Shown: piece by piece, positions 22,855 to 43,012 of the stretch | Position numbering within the stretch: position 1 is the first letter of the stretch | How the letters are laid out: each line of letters starts with the position of its first letter | Translations under genes and position numbers: made by a program | Notes under the pieces: model-generated | The model's input: the letters and a program-made list of their open reading frames with translations, nothing else | The model's database searches: none | What the model was told of the DNA's origin: nothing | NCBI RefSeq assembly: GCF_000165485.1 | Contig: NC_014623.1 | Span: 1,073,501-1,137,500 of the forward strand | Direction: 5' to 3' | DNA: 64,000 nt | DNA from: Stigmatella aurantiaca DW4/3-1 | GTDB taxonomy: Bacteria > Myxococcota > Myxococcia > Myxococcales > Myxococcaceae

Positions 22855-22860
22855 TTACCG

Positions 22861-24156: not shown

Positions 24157-24165
24157 GGTTGCCTC

Positions 24166-24591: not shown

Positions 24592-24603
24592 GCTCTGTTG
24601 CTC

Positions 24604-25016: not shown

Positions 25017-25025
25017 CCCATCTGG

Positions 25026-25054
25026 TAAATGGGTGCGCTTTTTTTCCGTGGCTC
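25026..25054 (-). promoter_or_regulatory. Phage bipartite element P2 (tail operon)
   Basis: On the minus strand: GAGCCAC, 10 bp (T/A-rich), CGCACCCATTTA. The ATG of the gp10-like gene is 9 bases downstream, with no room for a ribosome-binding site. The box touches the end of the preceding gene (25053). Confidence 0.8.
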
Positions 25055-26616: not shown

Positions 26617-26695
26617 GGAAGGGGCTCAGGAGGGCTCAAGCAGGGCGGAGCGCGCCCGCCAGGGGGTAAGGCAGGCAGAAGCGCCAACGGGGCGT

Positions 26696-27109
26696 CTAGA
26701 CGGCGGGAATCTCGTCAGGGCCGCAAAGCACGAGCGTGCTACTCGCCCCGAGTGTCGGAGAGGTACCGCCCGTGAAGCTGACCGTCTCGGTGACCCGCAG
26801 GTATCGCTTCGCGGTGGGCAGGCGCACGTTCACGCGAGCAACCCCGTTCTCGGAGATCAGCGGCTCGATCGCGGCGCCTGCCACATCGGTCCAGCCGGTG
26901 GAGCCGTCGGCGCTCTCCTGAAGCTTCGCGGCGAGCGTGAGGGAGGTCGGCCCGCCGGATGCGGAGCCCGTCTGCGCAGCGAGAACACACGAGTCGAAGC
27001 CGCGCCGGTCGACGGCGGCACTGTTCCGGGAGCCCGCGACGACAGCGGCAGGCGCGGTACCCGAGCGAATCGCGACGAGCACTCCCGCGTCGGTGGAATT
27101 GGCGTTCAC
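26696..27109 (-). CDS. Virion head protein of unknown detail (decoration/head fibre candidate)
   Basis: A 137-residue Ser/Thr/Gly-rich beta protein, with TLAAKLQESADGSTGWTDVAG and a late YLRVTETVSFTGGTSPTLG. This resembles phage structural proteins of unknown class encoded next to the capsid gene (with repeated W-x-D-V-x-G type strands). There is no RBS anomaly. It lies between capsid and connector genes, a common site for decoration proteins. Confidence 0.6.
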   Translation of the reverse strand: MNANSTDAGVLVAIRSGTAPAAVVAGSRNSAAVDRRGFDSCVLAAQTGSASGGPTSLTLAAKLQESADGSTGWTDVAGAAIEPLISENGVARVNVRLPTAKRYLRVTETVSFTGGTSPTLGASSTLVLCGPDEIPAV

Positions 27110-27181
27110 TTGAAGAGTCCTTTCGGTTGGGTGTGGGGCGGGGGCACTGTGCGAGCTGCCCCTGTGTCAGGTTGGCGGGTG

Positions 27182-28267
27182 TCAGTAGGTGATGGAGCTG
27201 AACGCCTTCGGCTGGCGCAGCTTGAAGTCACCCTTCACGATCGCCCGGATGGTCGTCTCGTCGTACTCGGCGCGCGTGTCGTGCTCGGAGAGAAGTAGAT
27301 CCTCGTCGATCCCGTAGATGAATTGACGCCAGTCGGCCGAGAAGGTGATCCGCGTCACGGGGACCCGCGTCGTCAAGACGAACGGGAAGCCACGGATGGT
27401 TCCCTTGTCGAGCATCTCCTGACGGAAGACGAAGATCCCCGAGTCCTTGAGCTGCATCAGCGCGGTCGCCCGGGTCGGGTGCAGAACCCATCCGGGGGTG
27501 CCCATGCGAATGTGCGCGGTCAGCGGCAGCTCCACCGCCTTGTCGATGTCGGCGGTGTAGGCTGCGGCGGTCGTGCCGGTGTTCGTGAACGTGTGCGAGC
27601 TGCTGATTTGCGCGAAGAGCCCCTTCGGTGACGAGCCCGTGCCGTCACCGTTGAACCCTGCGTCGTCGAGCCCATCGGCCACGGTGGCGCGGATGTCCTC
27701 GCCCACGCCCGCGTCACCGACCCCCGGTGTGCGCAGCAGGTCGTTGCTGATGTCGGTGAGAACCATCCCCTTGTGCGCCTTGAGTACGATCATCCCGTAC
27801 GTCGGCGCGCTCTTCGGAACCGTCTCCCCCTCGCCGACCCACTTGAAGGTCGTGGTACCCGTCTGCTTGCCCAGGTGCAGCTCGCCCTTGAACGGTTGGG
27901 TTCGCACACCGAGCTTGAGCAGGGCCGCGTCGGGCCGCAGGAACTCGATCACCTCGCCGCTTCGCTGGATGGGCACGAGCACGCCGGCCGAGTCGAACTT
28001 GCTGAGCTGCACCGCCTTCTGCACGTCAGCGTTGCCGAAGCGCTTCACGGCGTCGGTCAGCGCGATCGCGCCCGTGCGGCAAGTGGCCGCGACGACGCTT
28101 TTCGTGAACGCGCCGAAGTTCTCGACGCTCGTCAACACGCTCCCGTCCCGCGTCGTCGTGTCAGGACCGGCGCGGCCTGGCGCGCTCCGGTTCGCGGAAT
28201 CGACCAGCTCCCGCGCGACCTCCGGGCCGAGCGCCTTCACCATCTCTGCAATCTGCTCTCGCGTCAT
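27182..28267 (-). CDS. Major capsid protein, HK97 fold
   Basis: A 361-residue phage major capsid protein. The first ~95 residues are helical (MTREQIAEMVKALGPEVAREL...), fitting the cleaved delta/scaffold domain. The HK97 core follows with SAGVLVPIQRSGEVIEFLRP, FKWVGEGETVPKSAPTYG, then GWVLHPTRATALMQLKD and FPFVLTTRVP, each a recognisable segment. The start at 28267 (MTREQ) follows the protease stop by four bases. The longer frame upstream overlaps the protease gene antiphase. Confidence 0.93.
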   Translation of the reverse strand: MTREQIAEMVKALGPEVARELVDSANRSAPGRAGPDTTTRDGSVLTSVENFGAFTKSVVAATCRTGAIALTDAVKRFGNADVQKAVQLSKFDSAGVLVPIQRSGEVIEFLRPDAALLKLGVRTQPFKGELHLGKQTGTTTFKWVGEGETVPKSAPTYGMIVLKAHKGMVLTDISNDLLRTPGVGDAGVGEDIRATVADGLDDAGFNGDGTGSSPKGLFAQISSSHTFTNTGTTAAAYTADIDKAVELPLTAHIRMGTPGWVLHPTRATALMQLKDSGIFVFRQEMLDKGTIRGFPFVLTTRVPVTRITFSADWRQFIYGIDEDLLLSEHDTRAEYDETTIRAIVKGDFKLRQPKAFSSITY

Positions 28268-28271
28268 TTTC

Positions 28272-29093
28272 TCAGACTCCCTTGATGTGCTTCGTGAATG
28301 CCTCGACGAAGCCCTTCGCGGCCTCGCGAGCGTTGAACCCCTTCGCCTTCCCGTCTTCCTCGTCATCCGCCTTCGGCGCATCAGCGGATGTCGGCTCGCC
28401 CGTGTTGGGCTTGCTCTCGTCTGCGGGCGCATCACCGTTGCCGGTGGCTGGCTCTTTGGTCGGCTCGTCGCCCGCATCAGGTTTGTCGTCCTCCTTGCTG
28501 GACGCTTTCTCTTCGGCGCTGTCGCCGAGCAGCTCCGCGACCCGCGTTGCGATGCGCTCGACCAGTTCGTCGTCTTCGAGCGCCTTCGAGCGCACGGCCC
28601 GCGCGTTGCCCGGAATCGTCACGATCGAGACCTCCAGCAATTCCTGAGCGTCACAGTCGAAGCCGCCCCGCTCGTTCTCCCGGTACTGGCCGGGGAGCAT
28701 GAGGTAGCGGACTGAGACGGCGTTCAGGATGCCCTTCGCGACTTTGCGCTCGACCCGCTTCGCGAAGTCATCGTCATCGTCGAACTCGATGTCGATCATC
28801 AGCGCGTCGTTCTCGGTATAGACGCGCCCCTTGCCGATAGGCAGCGCGGGCGCCGCTCCCGTCCACGCGGCGTGCGCACCGTCGTCATGGTTGAAGAGGA
28901 CGACGCCGTTCGCGTTGTAGGCATCGACGCGCCAACCGTTGACGCTTAGCCGGTCGGAGTAACGGTCGAAGTCACCGTCGCTGGCCGTGAACGTGTAGAC
29001 ACGTCGGCTGCTGCCAGCTTCGACGGTGGTCAGTGCTGCCGCATCCTTCCGCACGGCGGCGAGCTGCAAAGAGCGTGTGATCGGCTTTCCCAT
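28272..29093 (-). CDS. Prohead protease with long acidic tail
   Basis: A 273-residue caudoviral prohead serine protease. The catalytic His is in VVLFNHDD, the Ser in ILNAVSVRYL, and LLEVSIVTIPGNARAV is the family end motif, all within residues 25-170. Residues ~190-255 are a low-complexity Asp/Glu/Ala/Pro/Lys stretch that might act as internal scaffold. The protease matures the HK97-type capsid. The ATG at 29093 lies only 9 bases after element P3, leaving no conventional ribosome site. Confidence 0.92.
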   Translation of the reverse strand: MGKPITRSLQLAAVRKDAAALTTVEAGSSRRVYTFTASDGDFDRYSDRLSVNGWRVDAYNANGVVLFNHDDGAHAAWTGAAPALPIGKGRVYTENDALMIDIEFDDDDDFAKRVERKVAKGILNAVSVRYLMLPGQYRENERGGFDCDAQELLEVSIVTIPGNARAVRSKALEDDELVERIATRVAELLGDSAEEKASSKEDDKPDAGDEPTKEPATGNGDAPADESKPNTGEPTSADAPKADDEEDGKAKGFNAREAAKGFVEAFTKHIKGV

Positions 29094-29102
29094 TCATAAG
29101 AG

Positions 29103-29131
29103 TAAATGCGTGCGGTTTTTGCCGGTGGTTC
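29103..29131 (-). promoter_or_regulatory. Phage bipartite element P3 (head operon)
   Basis: On the minus strand: GAACCAC, 10 bp, CGCACGCATTTA, followed after 9 bases by the protease ATG. Its upstream half overlaps the stop codon of the portal gene, so it is an internal promoter that restarts transcription of the head genes. Confidence 0.8.
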
Positions 29132-30473
29132 AGTCATTTTTTGCGGCCTCGGTATTTGCTTCCGCTGAGCTGCCCGCGGCTGGAGTGGGAGTCTCTTGGG
29201 GCTCGCTTGGCTTCTGTCCAGGCAGAAGCTCGGCAAAGCCCTGGCGCTCGGGGTGAGGCTTGAAGCCGGCTTCGGTGCGCCATTCGTCGAAGGTGAACGC
29301 ACTCGGGAGCGTCCCCATCACGCGCAGGCGGTGCTCGCGGTCGGCGGGAACGGGCGAGTCGTAGGAAAGGATCACGTCGTCTTGGAAGCGCGGCGCCAAG
29401 TGCTTCTGCATGGCCGCTAGGAACACTTCGGCGCGCGGCTTGGTGGCCTGCTCGGCAAGGTGTTCCCGTGCGGCGTAGCTCGTCGCTTTGTTGCTGCTCG
29501 TCACGTCACCCACGATCTCGGGCGGCACGCGATAGACCATCCGCACGAAGTCCATCAGGAACCGGCGCAGGTCGACGAGCTGCATATCCTTGAACGGCGT
29601 ATCCAGGCGCGCGAACGTGGTCCGGCCGCTGGTGATCATGACGCGCCCAGCGTTGGCGGGCCCTCCGTACTCGCGAGCTAGTGATTCCTTGAACGCCTTC
29701 GCTGGCCCCGCTTGGCTCTCGCTGAACCCTTCGATCGCGATGACGGCGCCAGGCAGCATGTTGTTGTAAAAGGCATTCTTCGTGTAGCGCGCCGCGTGCT
29801 CGTCCGTGTCGACCTCATCACCGAGCGCATAGGCGATGCCGATCCCGCGTCCGAGCGGGTCCGCCGGGTTCAGGCGCTTCACGTAGATCACGCTCGGTGC
29901 TGGGAGCGTGAACAGGCGACCGCCCGCCGTGATCGTGAAAGTGCGCTCGGGCTTCGGCTTGCTCAGGTCGGGAAGCGCGAGCACGCAGTCGGGCGGAACT
30001 GGCCACAGGCCCACCGGCACCCCGGCGACTTCCTCGACGACCGCGAAGAACTCGCCCGTCAGGTCGTAGTGCGTGCAGAAGAGTTTCGCGAAGTCGCGGC
30101 CCGTCATGTAGTCGTTCGGATCCGCCAGAAGCCGCAGCAGCGGGTGGTCGGTCAGCTCGACCGCACCCGCCACGTTGACGAGCGCCTTCAAGCGCTCGCG
30201 GCGCACGTCCCCACCGGCCCGGCGAAGAGAGACGTCGACGAGCGACTTCTGCGTCACGGGGTCGCGTCGCTGGAAGGCGCGCCACGTCACATCCGCGAAG
30301 GCATCCCCAACGGTGTCCACGATCGCCCCCAGCCAGGGCATCTCAGCGTAGGAGGCCAGCAGCGCGGGCACCTCCCGCCGTGGTGGGGCCGACGTCCAAC
30401 GGCTGAGTTCCAGGCCGGTCCCCTTGCGCTTGCTGCCGCTCAGCACGGCGCGCACCTTGTCGAGCATTCCCAT
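29130..30473 (-). CDS. Phage portal protein, HK97 family
   Basis: A 447-residue portal protein. Typical segments are WLGAIVDTVGDAFADVTWRAF near the N-terminus, HPLLRLLADPNDYMTGRDFAKLF, the wing region with RLNPADPLGRGIGIAYALGD, and the C-terminal GDVTSSNKATSYAAREHLAEQ. The portal is the DNA gate of the capsid. It follows the large terminase gene by ten bases. Confidence 0.93.
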   Translation of the reverse strand: MGMLDKVRAVLSGSKRKGTGLELSRWTSAPPRREVPALLASYAEMPWLGAIVDTVGDAFADVTWRAFQRRDPVTQKSLVDVSLRRAGGDVRRERLKALVNVAGAVELTDHPLLRLLADPNDYMTGRDFAKLFCTHYDLTGEFFAVVEEVAGVPVGLWPVPPDCVLALPDLSKPKPERTFTITAGGRLFTLPAPSVIYVKRLNPADPLGRGIGIAYALGDEVDTDEHAARYTKNAFYNNMLPGAVIAIEGFSESQAGPAKAFKESLAREYGGPANAGRVMITSGRTTFARLDTPFKDMQLVDLRRFLMDFVRMVYRVPPEIVGDVTSSNKATSYAAREHLAEQATKPRAEVFLAAMQKHLAPRFQDDVILSYDSPVPADREHRLRVMGTLPSAFTFDEWRTEAGFKPHPERQGFAELLPGQKPSEPQETPTPAAGSSAEANTEAAKND

Positions 30474-30482
30474 TGCGTAGCC

Positions 30483-31901
30483 TCACACCGCGAAGAACTG
30501 TTCAGCGAAAACCAAGTCGTGGACGCCCCAGCAAAAGGCGTCGGCGCGGTCGTCTCGGCGCCCGTTGACGCCCGTGAACTTGCTGAGCTGCTGCTCTAGC
30601 TTCTGGAAGGTGCCAACGAACTCGATGCGCCCGGCTTCGGCCAGGGCGGACACCGGCTCAGCGCGCTTGCTCTTTGCGCTCGTCGCCCTGACTGGCTTCA
30701 CGTTGACGCTCACGCCCATCTCAGCAGCGACCGTGCTGATCAGTGTCTCGACCATCTCCCCGCCTGTGTTGACCTCGACGACAAGGGCGTCACAGCCCCA
30801 TTCGAGGTAGGCGCGGATCGCGGTCGTTGCCCACTCACGCGGGCTCGCACGACGCGACAGGTCCGCGAGCACGGACACGCGCTTCAGCGAGATCCCATCG
30901 GCCCCGTAGAGCACGCTCGACTTGCACCCCTGGACAATGATCCCCGTCTCGTCGGAGCCGGTTTCACTCGTGGGGCTCGGATCGACGCTGACGATTCGCC
31001 GGTCGAGCTGCTGCGCATACTCATGAGGTTCCGCGTGGACACGCCCCCACCGAGCCGAGCCGAAGATCGCACCCGGGACGTCGAAGAGCAGGCGCCCGAG
31101 AACCTCTTGCTGACCCCATCGGGTGTTGGCAAGCGCTCGCATGTTGGCGATCGCCGACGGGGCAAGGTTCGCCGCGTTGCTCAGTGATGAGCCCGTGCGA
31201 AGCACAACACCCGGCTTGAGCTGCTGGGTTTCGGCATTCGTGAAGAGCAGGTCTTCTATCTTCTTGAGCGGTCGCGGCGTGCCAGTGAGTAGGAGCTGCG
31301 GTGGGTGCTCGCGCGTGCCGATGCGCAAGACCAGCGGGAGCTGATCGACGGCTGCCATGTCATGTTTCCAGCTCGCGGGCTCGTCACCCCAGCCCCAGCC
31401 AGCGTTAGGGCCGCGCAGCCGGTCGGGCTTATCCGCCGAGTAGCAGATCGCATAGACGCCGTTCGGCCACGTGACGCGCCGCTTAGAGGGCTCATAGCGC
31501 GGCGTGAAGCCGGGCGGAGACAGGGCCAGGATCCCGGAGGCCCCTCGGATCATCGTGTCGCGCACGTCGGCTGCGGTCGGGCCGATGAGCGCGCCGACGC
31601 TCTTCGCCTGCCACGCCTTTTTGATGACCCACCGGGCACCGCACCACGTCTTCCCGAAGCCGCGCCCGGCCATGACGAAGCACGTCGAGAACTTGTCGGG
31701 CGGCACCTGTTCGCGCCGGGCCCAGAAGTCCAGGTCGAAGACGAGCAGCTCGACCTCTTTGTCCTCGAGCCCGCCGAAGAGCTTCGCGAGCTGCGCGCGG
31801 GAGCCTGCCGCGCTGACCATCCGCGACGCGGGTGACTCGTAAGGCGCGAGCCCTTCGGCAAACTTTGCCCACTGGGACCCGCGTGTCAGGCCGCTACGCA
31901 T
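30483..31901 (-). CDS. Terminase large subunit
   Basis: A 472-residue DNA packaging motor. The ATPase half has Walker A (VMAGRGFGKTW) and Walker B-like GWGWGDEP; the nuclease half starts with RIVSVDPSPTSETGSDETGI and ends with the acidic RRDDRADAFCWG. The start at 31901 overlaps the small terminase by eight bases; 36 codons further upstream are antiphase with that gene. Confidence 0.95.
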   Translation of the reverse strand: MRSGLTRGSQWAKFAEGLAPYESPASRMVSAAGSRAQLAKLFGGLEDKEVELLVFDLDFWARREQVPPDKFSTCFVMAGRGFGKTWCGARWVIKKAWQAKSVGALIGPTAADVRDTMIRGASGILALSPPGFTPRYEPSKRRVTWPNGVYAICYSADKPDRLRGPNAGWGWGDEPASWKHDMAAVDQLPLVLRIGTREHPPQLLLTGTPRPLKKIEDLLFTNAETQQLKPGVVLRTGSSLSNAANLAPSAIANMRALANTRWGQQEVLGRLLFDVPGAIFGSARWGRVHAEPHEYAQQLDRRIVSVDPSPTSETGSDETGIIVQGCKSSVLYGADGISLKRVSVLADLSRRASPREWATTAIRAYLEWGCDALVVEVNTGGEMVETLISTVAAEMGVSVNVKPVRATSAKSKRAEPVSALAEAGRIEFVGTFQKLEQQLSKFTGVNGRRDDRADAFCWGVHDLVFAEQFFAV

Positions 31902-32370
31902 GGGTGTCCCCCTTGTCGTTGGCCTGCTCGGACGTGGCTCCGAGTTCTGCGGCTGGCGCGGGCGGCTCGTCTGGCAAGAACTTGCCCAGGCGGTCGAGCA
32001 GCAACTCACGCAACGCAGCGGTATCGGCCGCTTGGTCCTCGGGGCTCTTCGCCTCGACGTTGTCCCGTCGGCCGTACAGCTCCGGGAAGCGTCGGCTCAG
32101 CAACCACTGAACGTGCTTCGGGTTCGAGGTAGACGCGGCCTGCAGGGTTTCGGTGGCGCCCTGCATGAACTCCGCTTCGGCGCGGTTCACGGCAACGTAG
32201 AACTCGCGAAACAGCCCGCGAGCCTCACTTGCCCCCCGGTGATACCAGCGCGAGATGGTCTGTTCGTCGACCCCCACAAGACCGGCCGCAGCTCGGCGGA
32301 ATAGACCGGACCTCAAATGGTCGCAAATCTGCTTCTGAATCTCAGGATTGAGTTTGGTTGGACGGGCCAC
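31894..32370 (-). CDS. Terminase small subunit
   Basis: A 158-residue DNA-binding protein: ARPTKLNPEIQKQICDHLRS and RAAAGLVGVDEQTISRWYHRG form a helix-turn-helix of the small terminase type, followed by a helical oligomerisation region and an acidic tail. It recognises the packaging site. The start codon GTG (32370) lies six bases after element P4, so the message may be leaderless. Confidence 0.87.
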   Translation of the reverse strand: MARPTKLNPEIQKQICDHLRSGLFRRAAAGLVGVDEQTISRWYHRGASEARGLFREFYVAVNRAEAEFMQGATETLQAASTSNPKHVQWLLSRRFPELYGRRDNVEAKSPEDQAADTAALRELLLDRLGKFLPDEPPAPAAELGATSEQANDKGDTHA

Positions 32371-32376
32371 ACACCG

Positions 32377-32405
32377 TAAATGAGTGCGGTTTCGCGGAGT
32401 TTTTC
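32377..32405 (-). promoter_or_regulatory. Phage bipartite element P4 (terminase-portal operon)
   Basis: On the minus strand: GAAAAAC (two mismatches to GAACCAC), 10 bp, CGCACTCATTTA. The GTG start is six bases downstream. It is the weakest upstream half of the ten copies. Confidence 0.65.
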
Positions 32406-32444
32406 GGGGGTACCGTCAACAAAACTCAGCAGCGCGCGTTTTTT

Positions 32445-32460
32445 CTCAGAATTTTCTGAG
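32445..32460. promoter_or_regulatory. 16-bp palindrome CTCAGAAttTTCTGAG
   Basis: A perfect 7-bp-arm palindrome upstream of P4, in the non-coding stretch between the zinc-finger gene and the terminase genes. It could be an operator; no second copy was noticed. Confidence 0.35.
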
Positions 32461-32568
32461 CGTGTGCGCACTCCGGGCAAGGTTTGATTTCGCCTGCGAC
32501 AGAAAACCGGAGCCGGGGGGGCACCCTGTTCCCAATGCACACATTGCTACACCCTGGAGTCATGACCT

Positions 32569-32874
32569 TCACTGTGTGTGCATGCGATTGGTACACGTGC
32601 CGACGTCTACACACCGAGCCTGCCAGCGGCGCTCCCAGCTCCCCAGGGGTGACAGGCTCTCAGCTACAAACAGCTCACCGTGACCGCGCTGGAGCCTCAC
32701 GCCGCACAGTTCACAGGGCATCGCGAACAGGTTCCGCCGACGGCACACCTCGCTTTCGGCGCAGGCCATATGACGCGGCCCGACTGCGCGCTCGTAGGTG
32801 ATGACCTCGCCACGTTCGACCGGCATGGAGCACACCGCACACGGCCCGCGCCGCTTCGCGACGATCGTTGGCAT
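32569..32874 (-). CDS. Small cysteine-rich, probably zinc-binding phage protein
   Basis: A 101-residue protein starting MPTIVAKRRGPCAVCSMPVE, with C-x2-C, then GPRHMACAESEVC and MPCELCGVRL, i.e. two probable zinc knuckles. It is encoded directly after the sigma-like gene (its ATG lies just past that stop), so the two are co-expressed from P5. It may be a transcription partner such as an anti-sigma or co-factor, but the Hx3Cx2C motif of ZAS anti-sigmas is absent. The N-terminal 52 codons of the longer frame are antiphase with the sigma gene. Confidence 0.65.
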   Translation of the reverse strand: MPTIVAKRRGPCAVCSMPVERGEVITYERAVGPRHMACAESEVCRRRNLFAMPCELCGVRLQRGHGELFVAESLSPLGSWERRWQARCVDVGTCTNRMHTQ

Positions 32875-32875
32875 G

Positions 32876-33682
32876 TCAGCCCTCCTGTGTGGTGAGCAGC
32901 TCGCGCAGCTCGGCGAGGGACAGCACGAGCATCCGGTCGACCCTGCTTTTGGGTACCCCCCAGGCTTCCGCCACCGAGCGCACCGACTGCGCCGACTGGT
33001 TGATGCCATAGACCCGGGAGACCAGCTCACGCTTTACTGGAGCCAACCGGCGCACGGCATTGAAGACATGGACGCGGCGTTCTTCCGCCAGCAGGGCTTG
33101 CTCGGGGCTCTCGGCTTCTGCCTCCCGGCTCGTGAAGGCGCGAAAGGCTGCCTCGAACTCAACGGCCCCGCGCGACTGTCCTGATGGCTCGTCACTGGCG
33201 GGCGCAAGTGCATCGGTACTCTCGACTCGAATCGTGTCGCTTTCCCCATGCGCTGAGTGCGAAGTGCGTCCCTTGTGAGCCCAATCGCTCAGATGCACAT
33301 CGCTCGCATGCATTCGCGCGAATTGCTCGCAGGCCGTCCGGGCGCGGAAGTAGGCCACCTCCCCGAACGACTGCCCGCCCCTCGTGGGGTCGTACTTGCA
33401 GATCGTGCGGAGGACGGCGATCGACGCGACCTGTTCGAGGTCTTTGGACAACGGCGAGTCTGCGAACGGCTTGCTACAATTCACGACGCTTTTGATGATT
33501 GGACACACGGACGCAAGCAATTCTGCTGAGAGGGCCCTCTCGGCAACCGTGTCTCCTGTTTCCCGTGCGAACATGATTCGCGCGACAAGTGCAGCTTGTT
33601 GTTCCGACCGGGTAGTCTTCGACTCTCGTACATCGCTCACCGCTTCTTCGGCCCCGGTGTGTGTGGGGGCTTGAGACATCAT
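32876..33682 (-). CDS. Phage-encoded sigma-70-like factor
   Basis: A 268-residue protein with two parts of a sigma-70 factor. Residues ~50-125 resemble region 2: KDLEQVASIAVLRTICKYDP followed by TRGGQSFGEVAYFRARTACE parallels the D-L-x-Q-x-x-x-x-G-L-x-x-A-x-x-K-F/Y-D-x-x-R-G core. Residues ~203-263 resemble region 4: a helix (RRVHVFNAVRRLAPVKRELV) and an HTH (SVRSVAEAWGVPKSRVDRML). A polar linker separates them. The start at 33682 has TGGAG upstream; an alternative ATG at 33724 lacks a ribosome site. The gene is preceded by the phage element P5, so it may activate itself. Confidence 0.78.
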   Translation of the reverse strand: MMSQAPTHTGAEEAVSDVRESKTTRSEQQAALVARIMFARETGDTVAERALSAELLASVCPIIKSVVNCSKPFADSPLSKDLEQVASIAVLRTICKYDPTRGGQSFGEVAYFRARTACEQFARMHASDVHLSDWAHKGRTSHSAHGESDTIRVESTDALAPASDEPSGQSRGAVEFEAAFRAFTSREAEAESPEQALLAEERRVHVFNAVRRLAPVKRELVSRVYGINQSAQSVRSVAEAWGVPKSRVDRMLVLSLAELRELLTTQEG

Positions 33683-33810
33683 CGGACTGTCACTCCAGCA
33701 AGCACGGCCAACCCTGGCCACCATGGTTCACGTTCAGGCGCACGGAGCCCGATACCGTCCACGACGGTCCCGTACCACCTCCGCGCCGAGCGACTTGTTC
33801 GCTCAGCATG

Positions 33811-33839
33811 TAAATGCGTGCGACTTCTTAATTTGGCCC
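33811..33839 (-). promoter_or_regulatory. Phage bipartite element P5 (sigma operon)
   Basis: On the minus strand: GGGCCAA, 10 bp, CGCACGCATTTA. The downstream leader is ~130 bases to the sigma start; it contains a 39-codon open frame (ATG 33809) ending just before that start. Confidence 0.75.
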
Positions 33840-34054
33840 ACTGACACTGCTGGGTTGGCCAGGTGCCTGCTGACCTCATGGGTGAGCGTCAGTCTCGGCG
33901 GCTCACTCCGATGGGGGTCGTAGAAGTATCTAAACGCGCCCATCTCATATGTGTTCCTATACTCCTTTATACTACTCCTACCTCACCTTTCTCTTAAAGG
34001 GTTTAGGGAATAGAGAAGAGACGGCTTGATGTGGGCCGCGCTGCGGTGCCGCTT
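33840..34054. other. AT-rich divergence point between left and right phage arms
   Basis: No convincing gene. The segment 33930-34020 is much AT-richer than the rest (runs such as CTCCTTTATACTACTCC). It separates the leftward sigma operon from the rightward replication operon, each with its own element facing outwards. A replication origin or main control region would fit here. Confidence 0.4.
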
Positions 34055-34083
34055 GGGCCATCGCAGAAAACCGCACCCATTTA
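34055..34083 (+). promoter_or_regulatory. Phage bipartite element P6 (primase operon)
   Basis: GGGCCAT, 10 bp, CGCACCCATTTA on the plus strand. A GTG start codon lies seven bases downstream. Confidence 0.78.
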
Positions 34084-34090
34084 CCCTGCT

Positions 34091-34372
34091 GTGCCCCCTT
34101 CCTCTCGACCCGTCCCTTCGATCCCCGACATTGCCGGAAGCTACGCGGCTCGCGTCCGTGCGCTCCTCGCGGCTCGCGGCGAGCACATGACCGCGGCCGA
34201 AATCACCGAGGCTCTCGGCTGCTATGAGCGGCGCGTTCGAGAGGCCCTCGACCGCCTCGCGTTCTGTGCCGAGGTCGAGGTCGAGCTTCGCCACACGCCC
34301 GGCAAGCGCGGCACTCTCCCTCGAGCTTACCGGCTGAAGCGCTCCCCCAGCCGCACCAACGCGGGGACCTGA
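34091..34372 (+). CDS. Small winged-helix DNA-binding protein
   Basis: A 93-residue protein; from about residue 22, YAARVRALLAARGEHMTAAEITEAL then RRVREALDRLAF makes a helix-turn-helix, followed by a beta wing with RGTLPRAYRLKR. I choose GTG 34091 because it lies seven bases after P6, like other genes of this prophage; the ATG at 34031 would lie upstream of the element. It is the first gene of the right arm and two bases before the primase gene, so it may be a regulator or replication initiation helper. Confidence 0.7.
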   Translation: MPPSSRPVPSIPDIAGSYAARVRALLAARGEHMTAAEITEALGCYERRVREALDRLAFCAEVEVELRHTPGKRGTLPRAYRLKRSPSRTNAGT

Positions 34373-34374
34373 CC

Positions 34375-36681
34375 GTGCGCGTTGCCTTCTACGAGTCCGC
34401 TCAGGACAACATCCCGCGCGTTGAAGAACTCTCGTGGCCGGAGCTGTCTGCGCGACTCACGAGCCATCGCCGCAGCCAGTGCCCGACGACGCCCTGCGTT
34501 CGGGGCTGCCCCGCGAAGAACGGCGCGGCCTGGTCCCCCGTCGACATCGTCGAGCGGCGCCGCACCGAGAACGTGCGAGCCGTCACCGTCGCGGTCTTCG
34601 ACCTCGACCACCTGACCGAAACCCAGCTCTCTTGCCTCGATGCCGTCGAGCAGCGCGGGCTCGCCTTCGCGGTTCACTCGACGCACAGCAACCGCCCACC
34701 CGAGGATTACTGCCTGCGGCTGGCGATCCCCCTGTCCCGGCCGGTGCTCCCCCGGGAGTGGGCTGCCGTGAGACAGGCCGCGATCCGGATGCTCGGCCTT
34801 CCTGCCGATCCGGCGACCAAGGACCTCGCGCGGATTTACTTTCTGCCCGACACGCCGGTTGGGCTCGAGCCGCTCGCGCTCAGCGGGGAGGGGATGCCGC
34901 TGGACGTCGATGCCCTGCTGGCCCTGTCACGCTCGGGGTTACCTGCAGCCTCCCCCACGCTGGCGCCACACCTCGAGCCCGTGGACGCTGGCCCAGCCGA
35001 CCTCTACGAGCTTCGCGGGCTGCTTCGGCGCGTCAGGAAGCCCGAGCACGTGGTGCTGCTGCGTCGCGTCCTGGCCGGTGAGCCCCTCGCGCCGGTTGGC
35101 GAGCAGGACACAACCCTCAACGCCCTGATGTCGTGCGCCGCCTTCGCCTTGCCGCTGGACACACCAGAAGCTGCGGTCGTGGAGCTGTTCCGCGCGTCCT
35201 TCGCGGCAACGGCTTGGCAGGAGGGGACGGAACACCTGTGCGAGCAGGCCCTCCTCAAGCTGAGGCGACACCGTGAGCGCCGAAAGGTCCGCGACGAGGC
35301 GCGGATGGCCGAGAATCGCTCAATCTGGGAGGCCCTCGGGAGCAAGACGCCCGAACCGGCACTGCTGGAGGAAGACGAGACGGCCGACGACGACTGGGTG
35401 CGTGAGCTTGTGCTCGACGCCACGAAGGAAGGCGGGAAGCGGCTCCGGAACTGTGAAGCGAACGTGTTCACTGTCCTCCTGCGCTCGCCTGAGTGGCGCG
35501 GTGTTCTCCGCTTCAACGAAGTCACCAAGCGCCTGGAGGTGGAAGGCGGGCCGCTGGGGCCAAACACCGACCCCGAGACGCTCGACGTGCTCGTGGCGAA
35601 CTGGATCCAACGCAGCAGCTACGGGCAGCTCGGCCTGCAGCCGAAGGCGCAAACGGTCGCGCAGCAGATCCTCGCGGTCGCGAAGCGCAACAGCTACGAC
35701 CCCGTCGCCGACTTCCTCGCCGCGCTCGTCTGGGACGGGAAGCTGCGGCTCGACGAGCTGCTCGTCGCCTACTTCGGCGCTCAGGGGGATCCCTTGTACC
35801 TCCGTGCCGTTGGCGCGAAGTTCGCCATCTCAGCCGTCGCGCGTGCCCTACGGCCTGGCTGCAAGGTCGACACGGTCCTCATCCTGGAGGGGCCGCAGGG
35901 ACTCAGGAAGTCGACCGCATTTCAAATCCTTGGGGGGAAATACTTCAGCGACGCGCCGATCGACGTGAGCAACAAGGATAGCGCGATGCTCGCCTCCCAG
36001 TTCTGGTTTATCGAACTGGCCGAGCTGAGCACCTTCCGGAAGAGCGAGGATCAAGCGCTGAAGGCGTTCATCAGCCGCACGGAAGACACCTACCGGCCGC
36101 CCTACGGAAGAACCAACGTCAAGACGCCGCGCCGCTGTGTGTTCGTAGGGACGACGAACGACGACGACTATTTGCGCGATCCGACCGGGCACCGCCGCTT
36201 CTGGCCGGTCAAATGCACGCGGATCGACACGGATGCGCTCACCCGCGACCGAGATCAGCTCTGGGCAGAAGCCGTCGTGCGCTTCCACCAAGGGGAAACG
36301 TGGTGGCTCACTTCGGAGGAAGCCGCGGGCGCTGAGCAGCAAGCCGCCCTCCGTGCTGAGAACTACGGGGACAGCCGGAAGGAAGTCATCCTGCGTTGGC
36401 TGCTGGAGATGCCCCCAGAGAAGCGCCCCGCCGACGTGACGATCCTTCAAGTTGGGGTGGATGCCCTCATGCTTCACCCCGCTCAGGTCGACACGAGGAT
36501 TTCCCGCGAGATCTCTGCCGCACTCAAAGCGCTTCGGTTCACCCGTGGCCAGCGCCGGAAGGATGATGGCACCCGGCCGCTCGTTTATTACCTACCCGAC
36601 GAGCTGAGAACCGCCCCTGTCGAGAAACGCGGCGATCGGCGAGCAGGGCTGCAGGTCATCGCGGGCAGCACGTCGTTGTGA
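34375..36681 (+). CDS. Primase/helicase with VirE-type ATPase domain
   Basis: A 768-residue replication protein. Residues ~1-190 resemble a primase-polymerase-like N-terminus (VFDLDHLTETQ, SRPVLPREWAAV, AFAVHSTHSNRPPEDYCLRL). Residues ~440-690 are a virulence-associated E (VirE/VapE) P-loop domain: LEGPQGLRKSTAFQ (Walker A), FWFIELAELSTFRKSEDQALKAF and the arginine-rich GTTNDDDYLRDPTGHRRFWPV. It opens and primes phage DNA. The start GTG 34375 is close to the HTH gene stop. Confidence 0.9.
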   Translation: MRVAFYESAQDNIPRVEELSWPELSARLTSHRRSQCPTTPCVRGCPAKNGAAWSPVDIVERRRTENVRAVTVAVFDLDHLTETQLSCLDAVEQRGLAFAVHSTHSNRPPEDYCLRLAIPLSRPVLPREWAAVRQAAIRMLGLPADPATKDLARIYFLPDTPVGLEPLALSGEGMPLDVDALLALSRSGLPAASPTLAPHLEPVDAGPADLYELRGLLRRVRKPEHVVLLRRVLAGEPLAPVGEQDTTLNALMSCAAFALPLDTPEAAVVELFRASFAATAWQEGTEHLCEQALLKLRRHRERRKVRDEARMAENRSIWEALGSKTPEPALLEEDETADDDWVRELVLDATKEGGKRLRNCEANVFTVLLRSPEWRGVLRFNEVTKRLEVEGGPLGPNTDPETLDVLVANWIQRSSYGQLGLQPKAQTVAQQILAVAKRNSYDPVADFLAALVWDGKLRLDELLVAYFGAQGDPLYLRAVGAKFAISAVARALRPGCKVDTVLILEGPQGLRKSTAFQILGGKYFSDAPIDVSNKDSAMLASQFWFIELAELSTFRKSEDQALKAFISRTEDTYRPPYGRTNVKTPRRCVFVGTTNDDDYLRDPTGHRRFWPVKCTRIDTDALTRDRDQLWAEAVVRFHQGETWWLTSEEAAGAEQQAALRAENYGDSRKEVILRWLLEMPPEKRPADVTILQVGVDALMLHPAQVDTRISREISAALKALRFTRGQRRKDDGTRPLVYYLPDELRTAPVEKRGDRRAGLQVIAGSTSL

Positions 36682-36685
36682 GAGT

Positions 36686-36714
36686 GAGCCACGCCGCGAA
36701 AACGCACCCATTTA
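36686..36714 (+). promoter_or_regulatory. Phage bipartite element P7 (methyltransferase)
   Basis: GAGCCAC, 10 bp, CGCACCCATTTA, six bases before the methyltransferase ATG. It starts five bases after the primase stop codon. Confidence 0.8.
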
Positions 36715-36720
36715 GGGGAC

Positions 36721-38079
36721 ATGCAAGGCAAGCTGATCACCGACCGGGCGGCGCTCTTCCTGGGAGATGCCGCGCACGTCGGTCAGGTACTCGGGCCCAA
36801 TAGCATCGACGCGATTGTCACCGACCCGCCAGCAGGGATCGGGTTCATGGGCCGCGAGTGGGACGAGGACAAGGGCGGACGTGATGAGTGGATCGCGTGG
36901 CTCTCCGACGTGATGCGCAACGCGATGCATGTTCTCAAGCCCGGAGGACATGCCCTCATCTGGGCTCTTCCTCGCACGTCGCATTGGACCACGACGGCGG
37001 TTGAGAACGCGGGCTTCGAGATCCGCGACATCGTCATGCACCTATTCGGCACTGGGTTCCCGAAGTCCTTCGATGTGTCCAAGGCCATCGACTCAAGCCT
37101 GGGAGCCACGAGCCTTCGTCAGGTGATACGGCCTGGCGCCAAGTCTGGTGCTGCACCGGATGCCAATACCTACGGCTCGGGGCTCAACGTCGGCTTCCAG
37201 CCGCGGGAGCTGACGCTACCAGCGAGCGAAGCTGCCCGCGCGTGGCATGGATGGGGAACCGCGCTCAAGCCCGCAGCCGAGCACTGGATCCTTGCGCGGA
37301 AGCCTCTCGAAGGAACGGTTGCTGCGAACGTGCAGACGTGGGGCACGGGCGGGCTGAACATCGACGCCTGTCGCATCGGCGAGGATGTCGTCGGTTGGGG
37401 GGGCGGTGGGCGCGGCGCTGGAGACAGCGGCACGTGGAACGCGGACGCCTGCGGTCTCAGGGGAGGTGATGCGCGTCCGGCCGTTGGACGATGGCCTGCA
37501 AACGTCACCCTCGACGAACACTCCGCCGAGCTACTCGATGCACAGAGCGGTGTTCTCACCTCCGGAGCAAACCCGGCACGGCGGGGTCCTACGAAGGCGC
37601 GGAGTACGTACAAGGACACCTTCGCGGGGCAGGCGTCATGCACACCGGCACGTGGCGAGAATACGGGCGGGGCGAGCCGCTTCTTCTACGTCGCGAAGCC
37701 CAGCAAGGCGGAACGTAACACTGGCTGCGAGCACCTCCCCACGCGGATCACGAACACAGAGCTTCCACCCGGGACAAAGGGAGCAAACTCCCCGCGTGCC
37801 GGTGCTAACCGTTCGGGGGCAGCTCAAAACCATCACCCGACCGTGAAGTCGATCGCCTTGATGCGGTGGCTTTGCAGGCTGATCACTCCCCCCGGGGGCG
37901 CGGTGCTCGACCTGTTTGCCGGAAGCGGCTCGACGGGTGTCGCGGCCCTCGCTGAGGGGTTCGAGTTCATCGGGGTCGAGCGTGATCCCGACTACGCGGC
38001 GATCGCGTGTGCTCGCATTCGACATGCGCTTGGGGACACCATGAACCATTTGGAAGAAGAGCACCCATTTAGTCAGTGA
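36721..38079 (+). CDS. Phage DNA methyltransferase (beta-type N4/N6)
   Basis: A 452-residue enzyme with motif IV near residue 37 (VTDPPAGIGFMG, a DPPA variant of DPPY) and motif I near the C-terminus (VLDLFAGSGSTGVAALAEG), followed by FIGVERDPDYAAIA. This order (IV before I) marks a beta-class methyltransferase acting on adenine N6 or cytosine N4. The long middle part is a target recognition domain with Gly/Arg-rich loops. It is probably for protection of phage DNA or regulation; no restriction enzyme gene is nearby. Confidence 0.9.
   Translation: MQGKLITDRAALFLGDAAHVGQVLGPNSIDAIVTDPPAGIGFMGREWDEDKGGRDEWIAWLSDVMRNAMHVLKPGGHALIWALPRTSHWTTTAVENAGFEIRDIVMHLFGTGFPKSFDVSKAIDSSLGATSLRQVIRPGAKSGAAPDANTYGSGLNVGFQPRELTLPASEAARAWHGWGTALKPAAEHWILARKPLEGTVAANVQTWGTGGLNIDACRIGEDVVGWGGGGRGAGDSGTWNADACGLRGGDARPAVGRWPANVTLDEHSAELLDAQSGVLTSGANPARRGPTKARSTYKDTFAGQASCTPARGENTGGASRFFYVAKPSKAERNTGCEHLPTRITNTELPPGTKGANSPRAGANRSGAAQNHHPTVKSIALMRWLCRLITPPGGAVLDLFAGSGSTGVAALAEGFEFIGVERDPDYAAIACARIRHALGDTMNHLEEEHPFSQ
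38043..38071 (+). promoter_or_regulatory. Phage bipartite element P8, inside the end of the methyltransferase gene
   Basis: GAACCAT, 10 bp, AGCACCCATTTA. It encodes residues near the C-terminus of the methyltransferase (NHLEEEHPF) and lies eight bases before a small downstream ATG. Confidence 0.72.
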
Positions 38080-38211
38080 ATGTTGCCGTGTCCGCCGAGC
38101 ACGGTCGGGCACGAGTGGCTCAGCAAGGTCGAGCCGCAGGTCGAACGAATGAAGGCGCACGCGCAGGCCGCACGAGCCTCCGACGCGCCCGCGAACTCTG
38201 GCCCCGCCTGA
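38080..38211 (+). CDS. Small phage protein, 43 residues
   Basis: ATG at 38080 follows the methyltransferase stop directly (TGAATG) and lies eight bases after P8. The product has a helical middle (HEWLSKVEPQVERMKAHAQA) and a Ser/Pro/Ala end. It is called because its start stands in the same relation to the phage element as six other genes. The function is unknown. Confidence 0.55.
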   Translation: MLPCPPSTVGHEWLSKVEPQVERMKAHAQAARASDAPANSGPA

Positions 38212-38268
38212 TCCAAGTTTGGCGGGTGTCCGTTCATGGCGAGATGCCTGTCAGGAGAAAGAAAGACA

Positions 38269-38859
38269 ATGTCGCTTCGTGACCGTTTGCTGAACAAGTC
38301 CCATGCTCCGAGTCCCGAGGGAGGCGCCGCACACGTGGCCAACGCGCCCGAGGTGCTCGCGAACGAACCGCCTGCGGTGCTCCCTCCGGATGCCCCCGCC
38401 CCCGAGTCCGTTCAGAGCGCCCCCAACGTGAGCCCCCAGGCCGAGCAGCCCGCGCCAAAGCGTCGCGGTCGGCCGCGCAAGGTCGTCGAGGCCACGCAGA
38501 CCGCCGAGCCTGAGCAGCCCGCGGCCGTCAGCTCTCTGACTCGCGGCTTGCTCATTCTCCTCGTGGATTGCATCCCGACCGTCTTCGACGGGCCGACCCC
38601 TGAACCGCTCACGGGCTACGTCGACAACATGCACCGCAAGGTGGCCGAAGCGGGCGGTGTGGATGACGTTCGCTTCGCGGGCTCCGACTCGCCGCTCGGC
38701 TTCGGGAAGTGGCGTGGTGCGCTCGCGATAGCCGTCCGCGCCGAGCTGCCCCCACCCGGTGTCTACCTCGCGCTCGGGCTCGCGCACTCCGAGCTGATGC
38801 AGGTCGTGGTCGAGGCGCTCGAACCGTCCTTCGACTTGGTCGTTCGCAGCGTTCGCTAG
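38269..38859 (+). CDS. Phage protein with AT-hook-like motif
   Basis: A 196-residue protein. Residues ~20-75 are Pro/Ala-rich and contain APKRRGRPRKVVEA, a textbook AT-hook (RGRP flanked by basic residues). The C-terminal ~110 residues form a folded domain (SSLTRGLLILLVDCIPTVFDG...LALGLAHSELMQVVVEALEPS). The start at 38269 has AGGAGAAA upstream. AT-hook proteins such as CarD and HMGA-like factors are common in myxobacteria, so a role in binding AT-rich phage DNA is plausible. It converges with the SieB-like gene with a 4-base overlap. Confidence 0.72.
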   Translation: MSLRDRLLNKSHAPSPEGGAAHVANAPEVLANEPPAVLPPDAPAPESVQSAPNVSPQAEQPAPKRRGRPRKVVEATQTAEPEQPAAVSSLTRGLLILLVDCIPTVFDGPTPEPLTGYVDNMHRKVAEAGGVDDVRFAGSDSPLGFGKWRGALAIAVRAELPPPGVYLALGLAHSELMQVVVEALEPSFDLVVRSVR

Positions 38860-39413
38860 CCTATCCTTTGACGCGACTGGGCGGGCGCCTTGAGTGCCTG
38901 AAGCTCTTCGGGGGTGAGCTTCAGCAGTTCGGGGTGCTCTTTCAGCTCGCGCAAAGCCCAAGGCTGGATGTTGAAGGCCATGCCATCGATCATGTCGAAC
39001 ATCTTGGCAGCACGGTTGATGATCTGCCTCGCCTCTAACCCACCCGCGACCCCATCTGTGAGTTGGAAGTACTGGGTCTTCGTGTGCTTTTCCAGATAGC
39101 CGTTCAACAACTGTTTCTCTGTCGCGGACAGATCGTGCAACTCCATGCGGAGACGAGCACTTCGCTGCCGTCTTTGCCACCAAGCCAAAATCACGCTGCC
39201 TGCGTTGAGGAGAAGCGCAGCCACAGACACAAAGACGGCGACACCGAGCCAAGGCCGGAACTGGGCGCGCAGACCAGCTACTCCAAGCAGCTCGGCGGCG
39301 GATTGGGGCAGGAGCAAAGCCGGAAGCGAGACCAAAAGGACGAATCCCCATACCTTGGGGGCGCTGAGTGATTCGCGCAGGAGCTGCCACCACTTTGCCG
39401 GATCGAATGACAA
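38856..39413 (-). CDS. SieB-like superinfection exclusion protein (moron)
   Basis: A 185-residue membrane protein with two transmembrane helices (WGFVLLVSLPALLLP and PWLGVAVFVSVAALLL). A cytoplasmic domain then contains LSATEKQLLNGYLEKHTKTQY, GVAGGLEARQIINRAA and MAFNIQPWALRELKEHPELL. This layout matches the superinfection exclusion B family (SieB of lambda/P22 relatives), which aborts growth of related phages. It is transcribed leftwards inside the rightward early region, as expected for a gene expressed in the lysogen. Confidence 0.8.
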   Translation of the reverse strand: MSFDPAKWWQLLRESLSAPKVWGFVLLVSLPALLLPQSAAELLGVAGLRAQFRPWLGVAVFVSVAALLLNAGSVILAWWQRRQRSARLRMELHDLSATEKQLLNGYLEKHTKTQYFQLTDGVAGGLEARQIINRAAKMFDMIDGMAFNIQPWALRELKEHPELLKLTPEELQALKAPAQSRQRIG

Positions 39414-39550
39414 ACGAGGAGCCTCTTTCTACATGGCAAAAGGAAGGGGCACATTTTCACCATGCAGCCTACATATTAACAGCTAATCACGAGCCTAAGC
39501 TACTTAGGGCGGGGCTGGTCGGCTGGCTGTAAGGAACGTGCTTACAAAGT

Positions 39551-41476
39551 ATGAACCTTCTCGACCGTCTCACTCCAGGCGCGGCGCCCCCCGCCGAGCG
39601 CCAAGCTACCGCTACGCCCGCAGCTCTGGCGAAGCTGACCGGTGACCGTTCTGCGGTTGCGAAGGGGCAGCCCGTTGGATGGTCACCTGACCTTGCTCGT
39701 GTGCTCAGTCTTCCGCGCCGAGACCTCGCGAGCGCTTACGGTGACAGCGACTTCACGAGCCTCGAAGCGGCCCTGCGCGCACCGCCCGGGACGCGATGCA
39801 TCTGCGAAACGCTTCGGAAGCGCTGTCCTACCTCCCTGCTCCCAGTACAGCGACTTGCCGTGCTGGAAGCGGCCCGCGTTGGAGGGGGTATCTTCCCTAT
39901 TGGGGTAGGCCACGGGAAGACGTTGATCGACCTCTTGCTCCCGCTTGTCGTCCCCGGCTGCAAGGTCGCGGTGCTTCTGATCCCCGCGAATCTTCGCGCC
40001 CAGCTCTCCGACGTCGACTGGCACTTCTACGGTGGGCATTGGAGGCTTCCAAACCTCGCCGGGGGGCGATGGTTCCGTCCCGGCCTGCCTGTTCTCCACG
40101 TCATCACCTACGAAAAGTTTTCGACACAAGAGGGGACCGACCTCCTCACGCGCATCCGGCCAGACCTCATCGTCTGCGACGAAGCCCACAAGCTCAAAGA
40201 CCGGAAGAGCGCGCGAACGAGACGCTTCCTGCGCTACCTCGAAGGCCATCCCGAAACCCGGCTCGTCGCACAGTCCGGCACGCTCGCGACGCGCACGATC
40301 AAGGACTATGCACACCTCGCCGAGTTCGCCCTGCGTGACGGCAGCCCTTTGCCGCTCAGGGAGCCAGTCGTCGAGGAGTGGGCGGCAGCTCTAGACCCGG
40401 GGACGGTCGTGGCGCCCCCTGGGTTGCTTCTGAAGCTCGTCGCTCCCTCTCATCAGCTCGCCCCGCTTGAGGGTGAGAACGAAGCCGAGCGCGACCGTCG
40501 CCGCGTGCGTGACGCCTATCGTCGGTGGAGGAACGCAACTCCAGGGGTCGTCGCGACCGACGAAAGCGCGGTCAGCATGTCTCTCGTCATCCGCAAGCGT
40601 GACCCCGGGCCTGTTCCGGCCGAGCTGCTCGCGCACATCGCTACCGCGCTCGGTGGGCAGCGCCCTGACGGGGAGGAGTTCGTCGACGAGTTGCAAAGGG
40701 TCGTCTGCGCCCGACAGCTCGCGAGCGGCTTCTTTCATCGCTGGCGTTACCCGGACATTGGAGGCACCCCCCAGGACCCCGAGCTGATCCTTCGTTGGTT
40801 CGCGCGCCGTCAGGAGTTCAACCGCGAGCTGCGCGAGCGGCTCAAGCGACCCGCTGAGCACTTCGACTCCCCCGGGCTGCTTGTGCGCGCCGCCATCCGT
40901 GCCCATCAGGCTCCGCCTTACGATGGAGAGCTTCCAACGTGGCGCGCCGGCTCGTGGCCGTCGTGGGAGGAGATTCACAAGCGCGTCGTACACGTCACGG
41001 AAAGCGTGTGGCTTTCCGACTTCATCGTGAACGATGCCGCGAAGTGGGCAACGCGCAAGGGCCAGCCAGGAATCGTCTGGGTCGAGTTCCCAGAACTCGG
41101 CGAGCGCATCGCGAAGGCGGCGGGCGTGCCCTTCTACGGGGGCGGAAAGGAAGCGTCAGCGACCATCATCCGTGAAACCGGCAAGCGCTCGATCGTGGCG
41201 TCGCTCAGAGCACACGGGACCGGCAAGAACCTGACGATGTTCTCGCGGATGCTCTTCGTGAATCCGCCTGCGGATGGCGCCGCTTGGGAACAGGCGATCG
41301 GGCGCATTCACCGTCAGGGCCAGGCCGCCGACGAGTGCGAAGTCGAGCTGTACCAGCACACTGACGAGCTGATTGACGCCTTCCGCAAGGCTCGCGACTT
41401 CGCACGCTTCATCGAACAGACGGAGGGCACGCCGCAGAAGCTGTGCTTCGCGTCCTACGACTGGGCGGTGCACTAA
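39551..41476 (+). CDS. SF2 DNA helicase (phage)
   Basis: A 641-residue SWI/SNF-like superfamily 2 helicase. Motif I is FPIGVGHGKTLIDLL, motif II IVCDEAHKLKD, motif III AQSGTLATRT, and motif VI WEQAIGRIHRQGQA. No endonuclease domain is seen. The ATG at 39551 lacks the phage element upstream; a small inverted repeat GTAAG...CTTAC lies just before it. The last residues (LCFASYDWAVH) are echoed by a second copy of their coding sequence beyond the kinase gene, which implies an insertion event here. Confidence 0.9.
   Translation: MNLLDRLTPGAAPPAERQATATPAALAKLTGDRSAVAKGQPVGWSPDLARVLSLPRRDLASAYGDSDFTSLEAALRAPPGTRCICETLRKRCPTSLLPVQRLAVLEAARVGGGIFPIGVGHGKTLIDLLLPLVVPGCKVAVLLIPANLRAQLSDVDWHFYGGHWRLPNLAGGRWFRPGLPVLHVITYEKFSTQEGTDLLTRIRPDLIVCDEAHKLKDRKSARTRRFLRYLEGHPETRLVAQSGTLATRTIKDYAHLAEFALRDGSPLPLREPVVEEWAAALDPGTVVAPPGLLLKLVAPSHQLAPLEGENEAERDRRRVRDAYRRWRNATPGVVATDESAVSMSLVIRKRDPGPVPAELLAHIATALGGQRPDGEEFVDELQRVVCARQLASGFFHRWRYPDIGGTPQDPELILRWFARRQEFNRELRERLKRPAEHFDSPGLLVRAAIRAHQAPPYDGELPTWRAGSWPSWEEIHKRVVHVTESVWLSDFIVNDAAKWATRKGQPGIVWVEFPELGERIAKAAGVPFYGGGKEASATIIRETGKRSIVASLRAHGTGKNLTMFSRMLFVNPPADGAAWEQAIGRIHRQGQAADECEVELYQHTDELIDAFRKARDFARFIEQTEGTPQKLCFASYDWAVH
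41447..41466 (+). repeat. 20-bp direct repeat flanking the kinase moron, left copy
   Basis: An exact 20-base match to 42893-42912. It codes for FASYDW near the helicase C-terminus. Between the two copies lie only the antisense kinase gene and its upstream region. Confidence 0.85.
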
Positions 41477-41485
41477 GACGCAACG

Positions 41486-42956: not shown

Positions 42957-43012
42957 CGTGGAGTCAGCGCAATTCGCCGCTGACGCAACCCAAGTCCAAG
43001 GACCCACGTAAC

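Follow-up and report, generated by a model that had tools for sequence, protein, structure and literature searches.

The stretch of DNA analysed here (the window: Stigmatella aurantiaca DW4/3-1, NC_014623.1 of assembly GCF_000165485.1, positions 1,073,501–1,137,500 of the forward strand, 64,000 nt) contains a prophage encoding a divergent sigma factor that, with a probability we put at roughly 87%, reads ten bipartite promoters of this prophage, including the one in front of its own gene, as judged by sequence comparison. In the proposed mechanism, sigma together with host core RNA polymerase would recognise a −35 element TGRRCCA and a −10 element GCACNCATTTA held at fixed spacing, and would transcribe the operons for lysis, tail, head, packaging, replication, DNA modification and resolvase/integrase functions as well as its own gene, many of these targets as near-leaderless messages. 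A candidate trigger, in a sister clade of sigmas (clade B), is a host sigma-54-type promoter. Core binding, direct recognition, positive feedback and silence of the prophage when sigma is not present are steps that we infer, and switching in an all-or-none manner is a hypothesis.

A divergent two-domain sigma factor

The sigma gene lies on the minus strand at 32876..33682 and encodes 268 residues from the ATG at 33682. The reading frame is open as far as an ATG at 33724, which would give 282 residues, and the shorter form is favoured because the closest relatives start at about the same position. As a single query, the protein matched PHROG 351, "RNA polymerase sigma factor" (E 5.9e-8), and region 4 of RpoS (E 0.007); a Pfam search with the same query returned no match, the sequence being too divergent. 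The family profile searched against the PDB matched RpoS (E 7.8e-9), SigA and FliA. Among 25 family members compared with Pfam at E up to 1, Sigma70_r2 was found in 24 (best 9.6e-13) and Sigma70_r4 in 15 (best 1.2e-4), and the sole member without a Sigma70_r2 match was the window sigma itself. Since this protein also sits on a long branch (0.43 in a quick tree), it could be drifting.

An AlphaFold model of the window sigma (mean pLDDT 73.3, pTM 0.42) places domain 2 at approximately residues 20–126 and domain 4 at approximately 193–266, both mostly confident, the helices at 193–266 included, and joined by a low-confidence linker (residues 129–173, pLDDT < 50). ECF (group 4) sigma factors consist of sigma2 and sigma4 joined by a linker, without a sigma3 domain, and the structural matches of the model span both ECF and group 1–3 sigmas. 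In VIA-align, model residues 25–126 superposed on a solved sigma domain 2 with a Z of 10.6 (rmsd 2.1 Å over 99 residues), a value that is weak taken alone, as is any Z below about 13 for helical bundles, and model domain 2 superposed on a sigma domain 2 bound to −10 DNA with a Z of 9.9 (rmsd 3.1, 104 residues). A Foldseek search returned 48 matches (E up to 0.001), of which those listed are all sigma or sigma–polymerase entries, with low whole-model TM-scores (0.24–0.30). Both features of the sigma-70 family, region 2, which in that family binds core and the −10, and a region 4 helix-turn-helix, which binds the −35, are present as judged by PHROG, the Pfam matches of relatives, the RpoS match and the model. 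A first-pass annotation had described a divergent protein with these two regions and had named structure prediction as a check; PHROG 351, the PDB profile, the Pfam matches of relatives and the model all agree with that description, the model containing both regions rather than lacking them. That the open reading frame encodes a divergent two-domain sigma-70-family factor is well supported by these sequence and model comparisons.

Ten bipartite promoters on both arms of the prophage

The core GCACNCATTTA is present exactly 10 times in the window, five times per strand, as compared to an expectation of 1.29 at up to one mismatch and a maximum of 4 over 100 shuffles. In nine of the ten sites, TGRRCCA stands exactly 12 bp upstream of the core (TGRRCCA-N12-GCACNCATTTA), and P4 alone is degenerate at the −35, with CGAAAAA instead. 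The promoters diverge outward from both sides of 33.84–34.05 kb; the genes behind P1–P10 were named by PHROG and Pfam. Leftward, on the minus strand, P1 (14056..14085) lies upstream of an endolysin gene (13201–13740) and a gene with no assigned function (12737–13189), P2 (25026..25055) upstream of a 96-aa ORF followed by genes for the major tail protein, tail chaperone and tape measure, and P3 (29103..29132) upstream of the prohead protease and major capsid genes. P4 (32377..32406), whose −35 is degenerate in several relatives too, precedes the genes for the small and large terminase subunits and the portal, and P5 (33811..33840) is the putative promoter of the sigma gene itself, with the sequence TGGGCCA-N12-GCACGCATTTA. 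Rightward, on the plus strand, P6 (34054..34083) is followed by a 93-aa HTH-like gene and the primase-helicase gene, P7 (36685..36714) by a DNA methyltransferase gene, P8 (38042..38071) by 38236–38859 and a helicase gene (39551–41476), P9 (42927..42956) by a conserved gene with no assigned function and the DNA polymerase gene (43627–45726), and P10 (46356..46385) by a RuvC-like ORF (46654–47256, labelled by eye and with no Pfam match) and a tyrosine integrase gene (47483–48691). Two genes in the opposite orientation, encoding a SieB-like protein (38856–39413) and a Ser/Thr kinase (41486–42658), have no such site in front of them. The bipartite element that the first-pass annotation had pointed out before the sigma gene was confirmed as one of the nine exact sites, and its proposal that sigma governs both arms of the genome agrees with the matching promoters found before replication genes and before head, tail and lysis genes.

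The −10 type follows the sigma clade

The comparison drew on 66 related loci from genomes and viral contigs, which reduced to 48 distinct sigmas. The −10 box varied with the sigma clade, being CATTTA in clade A, CATWRA after GTCCC in clade B and CATCTA in clade C. By site counts, the 48 loci comprised 31 of type A, 14 of type B (including G051c), two of type C and one without a site (L115). Two of these are misfits: in G051c the A-like sigma is broken and a single B-like hit (control 0.06) occurs without any A site, and L115 has an intact B-clade sigma and no site by that count. Stray hits were seen in four A loci with one "C" hit each and in L096 with one "B" hit; of the five C hits in G051b, one falls inside the polymerase gene, and the same words make up one of the two hits of G148c. 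A word search anchored at the −35, which presumed only that box and not the −10, ranked CATTTA at 17 (or sub-words of it) high in 28 of the 31 A loci, GTCCCCAT at 12–14 high in 9 of the 14 B-clade loci, and CATCTA at 16 high in one of the two C loci. An unanchored gapped-word search was dropped, as it returned mostly G+C-rich words with equally high control counts.

On a tree of the 41 full-length distinct sigmas (25 A, 13 B, 2 C and one without a site; the seven of the 48 loci with a partial sigma were left out), the promoter labels required the minimum possible number of changes, three with the unlabelled row treated as a group and two without it, the tree being a quick one made without bootstrap and carrying a long-branch warning. 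The difference between A and B alone could reflect general divergence; the informative case is the switch from A to C, type C being two phages only that form one branch (support 100) nested inside A. Terminases, portal, capsid, helicases and polymerase of the C phages are 79–93% similar to those of the window, as compared to 77–92% for four nearby A phages, and the corresponding ranges for the protease are 64–68% and 63–67%. The protease promoter reads ACAACATCTA in both C phages and RCACGCATTTA in the four A phages shown, and the terminase promoter has also switched to the C type in G148c. With up to three mismatches allowed, one C locus has 7 C sites and the other 6, as compared to 0 and 1 in the controls, and neither has an A site when up to two are allowed; six A or B loci checked for C sites had none. 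Within sigma, position 136 is occupied by H in all 25 A proteins, by Q in all 14 of the B clade and by Y in both of clade C; we take this residue to adjoin H455/E458, which make the extended −10 contacts in E. coli sigma-70, on an ungapped by-eye alignment. Residue 134 is W in the window sigma and G in most A relatives. Sites resembling −35 and −10 elements that co-vary with the protein, a further feature of the sigma-70 family, were found in this comparison, and the first-pass reading of sigma as the likely reader of the ten promoters is well supported by the way in which the −10 type follows the sigma clade.

A start codon follows the −10 after 9 nt at P2 and P3, 6 nt at P4 and P7, and 7 nt at P6, and none occurs 5–14 nt after the −10 at P1, P5, P8, P9 or P10. 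With ORFs of at least 60 codons counted, a start codon lies 5–14 nt past the −10 at 60% of the A sites (n = 186), 69% of the B sites (n = 70) and three of the ten C hits, as compared to 11% of 3000 random places, which suggests that many targets of the phage promoters would be near-leaderless messages in a high-G+C host. Unlike these targets, the sigma ATG at 33682 is separated from the −10 of P5 by 128 nt (33683..33810, minus strand); the predicted RNA fold of the leader (33683–33806) was no better than that of shuffles.

Distribution of the sites and of sigma

Across the 10.26-Mb chromosome, all 15 sites with at most one mismatch fall in two prophage loci, nine in the window prophage and six in a decayed relative, and four further sites with two mismatches lie outside both; a control with the pattern read backwards gave two hits over the whole chromosome at up to two mismatches. 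The decayed relative, at C1:7571132-7578210 of the same genome, retains a C-terminal fragment of sigma beside its six type-A sites. The type-A pattern occurs in 34 of 96 family genomes (backwards control in 0), the type-B pattern in 12 (control 0) and sigma in 23 (E 1e-6); at E 1e-15, sigma was found in 22 of 195 genomes of the phylum, every one within the family of the window. Type-A sites, one to five each, are present in 17 of those 34 genomes with no sigma match at E 1e-6, type-B sites in two genomes with no match at the same threshold, and A sites in the B-sigma genomes G147 (three), G084 (one) and G078 (one). Nine stretches around sites away from sigma were inspected (in G059, G034, G054, G071, G146 and G062), six of which carry protease or capsid relatives and two more, both in G062, relatives of the P6 genes. 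With sigma-distant sites standing beside related phage genes, the sites track the phage group and not the sigma gene alone.

Six loci (L174, L175, L176, L177, L178 and L180) have type-A promoters, arranged as a divergent pair in five of the six, and a related prohead protease. Five of the set have a capsid gene and a related integrase, the latter recognised by eye or by DNA similarity, L178 and L180 gave weak primase-helicase matches as well, and none of the six gave a terminase match. These loci may be satellites borrowing the sigma of a helper, or remnants. Named relatives include Myxococcus and Corallococcus records. A record titled Comamonas sp. (L122, BNCN01000010.1) carries a relative of the prophage; its title is probably wrong, and we infer that the host is a myxobacterium. 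A search of phage records with the sigma protein gave no match. Viral contigs yielded one locus with the single sigma query and 26 with an alignment query, genome contigs none and nine, respectively; a distant match in G103 was set aside, as the profile did not recover it.

Probable autoregulation and a candidate trigger

Every A or C locus whose sigma 5′ end is intact, 28 of 28, has a type-matched promoter (at most one mismatch) in front of sigma, a count that left out G042 (no sequence) and G000b, G051c, G005, G054 and L109 (no intact sigma start). These promoters end approximately 125–190 nt before the matched sigma sequence, and in three of them the gap is 13 bp. The claim that sigma has its own gene among its targets is well supported in these loci at the level of sequence. 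In the B clade, a sigma-54-type site, TGGCN7TTGCT, starts 79–133 nt upstream of sigma in 14 of 14 loci (for example in G084, C1 near 8454970, and in G147, C5) and is found in 0 of 33 other loci, with 0.00–0.04 expected per locus, the pattern having been composed after the site had been noticed in several type-B loci. A type-B promoter lies approximately 280–310 nt upstream of sigma in 10 of the 14 B-clade loci, and four type-B hosts encode at least 61–69 sigma-54 activators per genome. The sequences are consistent with feedback wired in the A and C loci and in most B loci; host input is likely in B, where the sigma-54-type site is a plausible host trigger. Because a loop that is closed on its own activation would need an outside start, the first-pass term "master switch" does not account for the trigger. 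A simple consensus scan found no sigma-70-like promoter in 33600–34150 of the window and no terminator between sigma and P6.

Neighbouring elements and prophage bounds

A Cys-rich protein of 101 residues is encoded at 32569..32874 on the minus strand, starting 1 nt after the sigma stop codon. Homologues of this partner are present in 38 of the 48 loci, in 32 of which they lie within 2–5 nt of the sigma end. The protein has conserved Cys and His residues and is probably zinc-binding; family searches assigned it no function, and an anti-sigma role would be a guess. In L174 the protease ORF includes, as a fusion, a stretch that resembles the partner by eye. Between P5 and P6 lies an AT-rich non-coding element (33933..34031; 43% G+C as compared to 64% for the window), which is present in 34 of the 48 loci, inverted relative to sigma in some, and repeated in G055 (three copies) and in G035 and G152c (two each). 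Its predicted RNA structure was no better than that of shuffles, and it is perhaps an origin or operator.

The prophage probably extends over 6633..48805, between two direct repeats (at 6633 and 48730) in which the 3′ end of a gene for tRNA or tmRNA is recognisable by eye; ARAGORN found no tRNA in the window, and Rfam gave no match there at gathering score. A third copy of the putative att repeat lies beyond the right end, at 50787–50862, so another small tandem element may be present. Three Ser/Thr kinase genes lie within or at the prophage (6920–8143, 8211–9959 and 41486–42658), one of which adjoins a DUF2381 gene (9956–10825), and the C terminus of a 1084-aa protein (16454–19708) looks like a Hint/intein-type domain by eye.

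Discussion

Three other explanations bear on the reading of this sigma as the factor that recognises the ten promoters. The bipartite elements could be read by some other factor, either a host sigma or a phage regulator, the sigma gene being merely one of its targets. Other proteins are widespread and conserved in these loci (a homologue of the 38236 product in 40 of 48 and the Cys-rich partner in 38 of 48), type-A sites occur in the 17 family genomes with no sigma match, and recognition by sigma is itself deduced from sequence. However, the 93-aa HTH protein at P6 is found in only 7 of 48 loci, the confinement of near-perfect sites on the chromosome to two prophage loci disfavours a host regulon, the sigma-less loci that were inspected carry related phage genes, and the −10 type follows the sigma clade through the A-to-C switch in otherwise similar phages. 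We consider a different reader very improbable. It is also improbable, if somewhat less so, that the window prophage is decaying and its own sigma inactive while the sigmas of the family work. The long branch and W134 in place of the G of most A relatives would fit such decay, as would the broken copies seen elsewhere, namely the remnant in the same genome and the interrupted, frameshifted or partial copies in G005, G055 and G042, whereas the sigma ORF is open in the window, the partner gene is intact, nine promoters are exact and the main head, tail, replication and integrase ORFs are open.

Sequential control, in which the early genes are first transcribed by host polymerase, from promoters not recognised here, and sigma mainly amplifies them and turns on the late genes, is a possibility to which we give appreciable weight, although the odds are against it. 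A self-activated sigma needs a starter, the AT-rich element between P5 and P6 is conserved, and known phage sigmas, T4 gp55 and gp28/gp34 of SPO1, act on middle or late genes (PMC9429907). Against this stand the result of the consensus scan of 33600–34150 and the element that the replication, methyltransferase and helicase genes share with the late genes.

Beyond recognition of the ten promoters by sigma, a tentative and rather doubtful extension concerns lysogeny, which might be maintained with no classical repressor, the prophage being silent by default as long as sigma is not made, with sigma–promoter specificity groups A, B and C among co-resident prophages and the type-B loop lit by host sigma-54. 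The sigma–promoter pair would then replace repressor and operator as the specificity group, and co-resident prophages would drift to orthogonal types. No HTH_3 or S24 repressor was found in the window at E up to 1, these being the two families searched, as compared to 43 and 1 matches in the rest of the genome. Mixed types reside together in G148 (two A, one C and one B) and G051 (A and C); G152 with three A, G082 with two A and G084 with two B speak against orthogonal drift.

The first-pass annotation, which named T4 gp55 and SPO1 gp28 as known phage sigmas, had thought that an autoregulated sigma over early and late prophage genes in a myxobacterium would be new to it. This is half right: searches of the open PMC literature listed no report of a sigma factor in a myxobacterial prophage, and the available part of a review of M. 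xanthus phages makes no mention of sigma; phage sigmas as such are well known, including Xpf of prophage PBSX. Xpf, the positive control factor, drives the late operon of PBSX. In Bacillus subtilis it is described as sigma-like and linked to the prophage, with both sigma2 and sigma4 (PMC10141391). The window system is alike in being a prophage-linked sigma-like factor with both domains and, set beside Xpf by description, differs in that the same promoter stands before replication, packaging and lysis genes and the sigma gene, and in that promoter types appear to have co-diversified across the family. Phage phiEco32 is lytic. The promoters of the phiEco32 and phage 7-11 sigmas were found from genome sequence, and phage 7-11 is likewise lytic (PMC4331800); here, in contrast, the phage is temperate, the sites include that of the sigma gene itself, and three sigma–promoter types were compared. 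T4 gp55 and SPO1 gp28 and gp34 are listed as phage sigmas controlling middle or late genes in the account cited above (PMC9429907), and are likened to the window sigma by function and not by sequence, T4 and SPO1 being lytic phages unlike the prophage here. Ltr of Staphylococcus phage Phi13 is a prophage-encoded regulator required for late packaging and structural genes, and differs in being a transcriptional regulator that acts on region P23, with a putative TATA-box, rather than a sigma with many promoters (PMC13123087).

The system would represent a family of temperate phages whose early and late genes alike appear to be under a single phage sigma. It offers a natural series of sigma–promoter co-evolution, with three −10 types and one diagnostic residue, and it includes a candidate route from a sigma-54 signal of the host to the triggering of a prophage.
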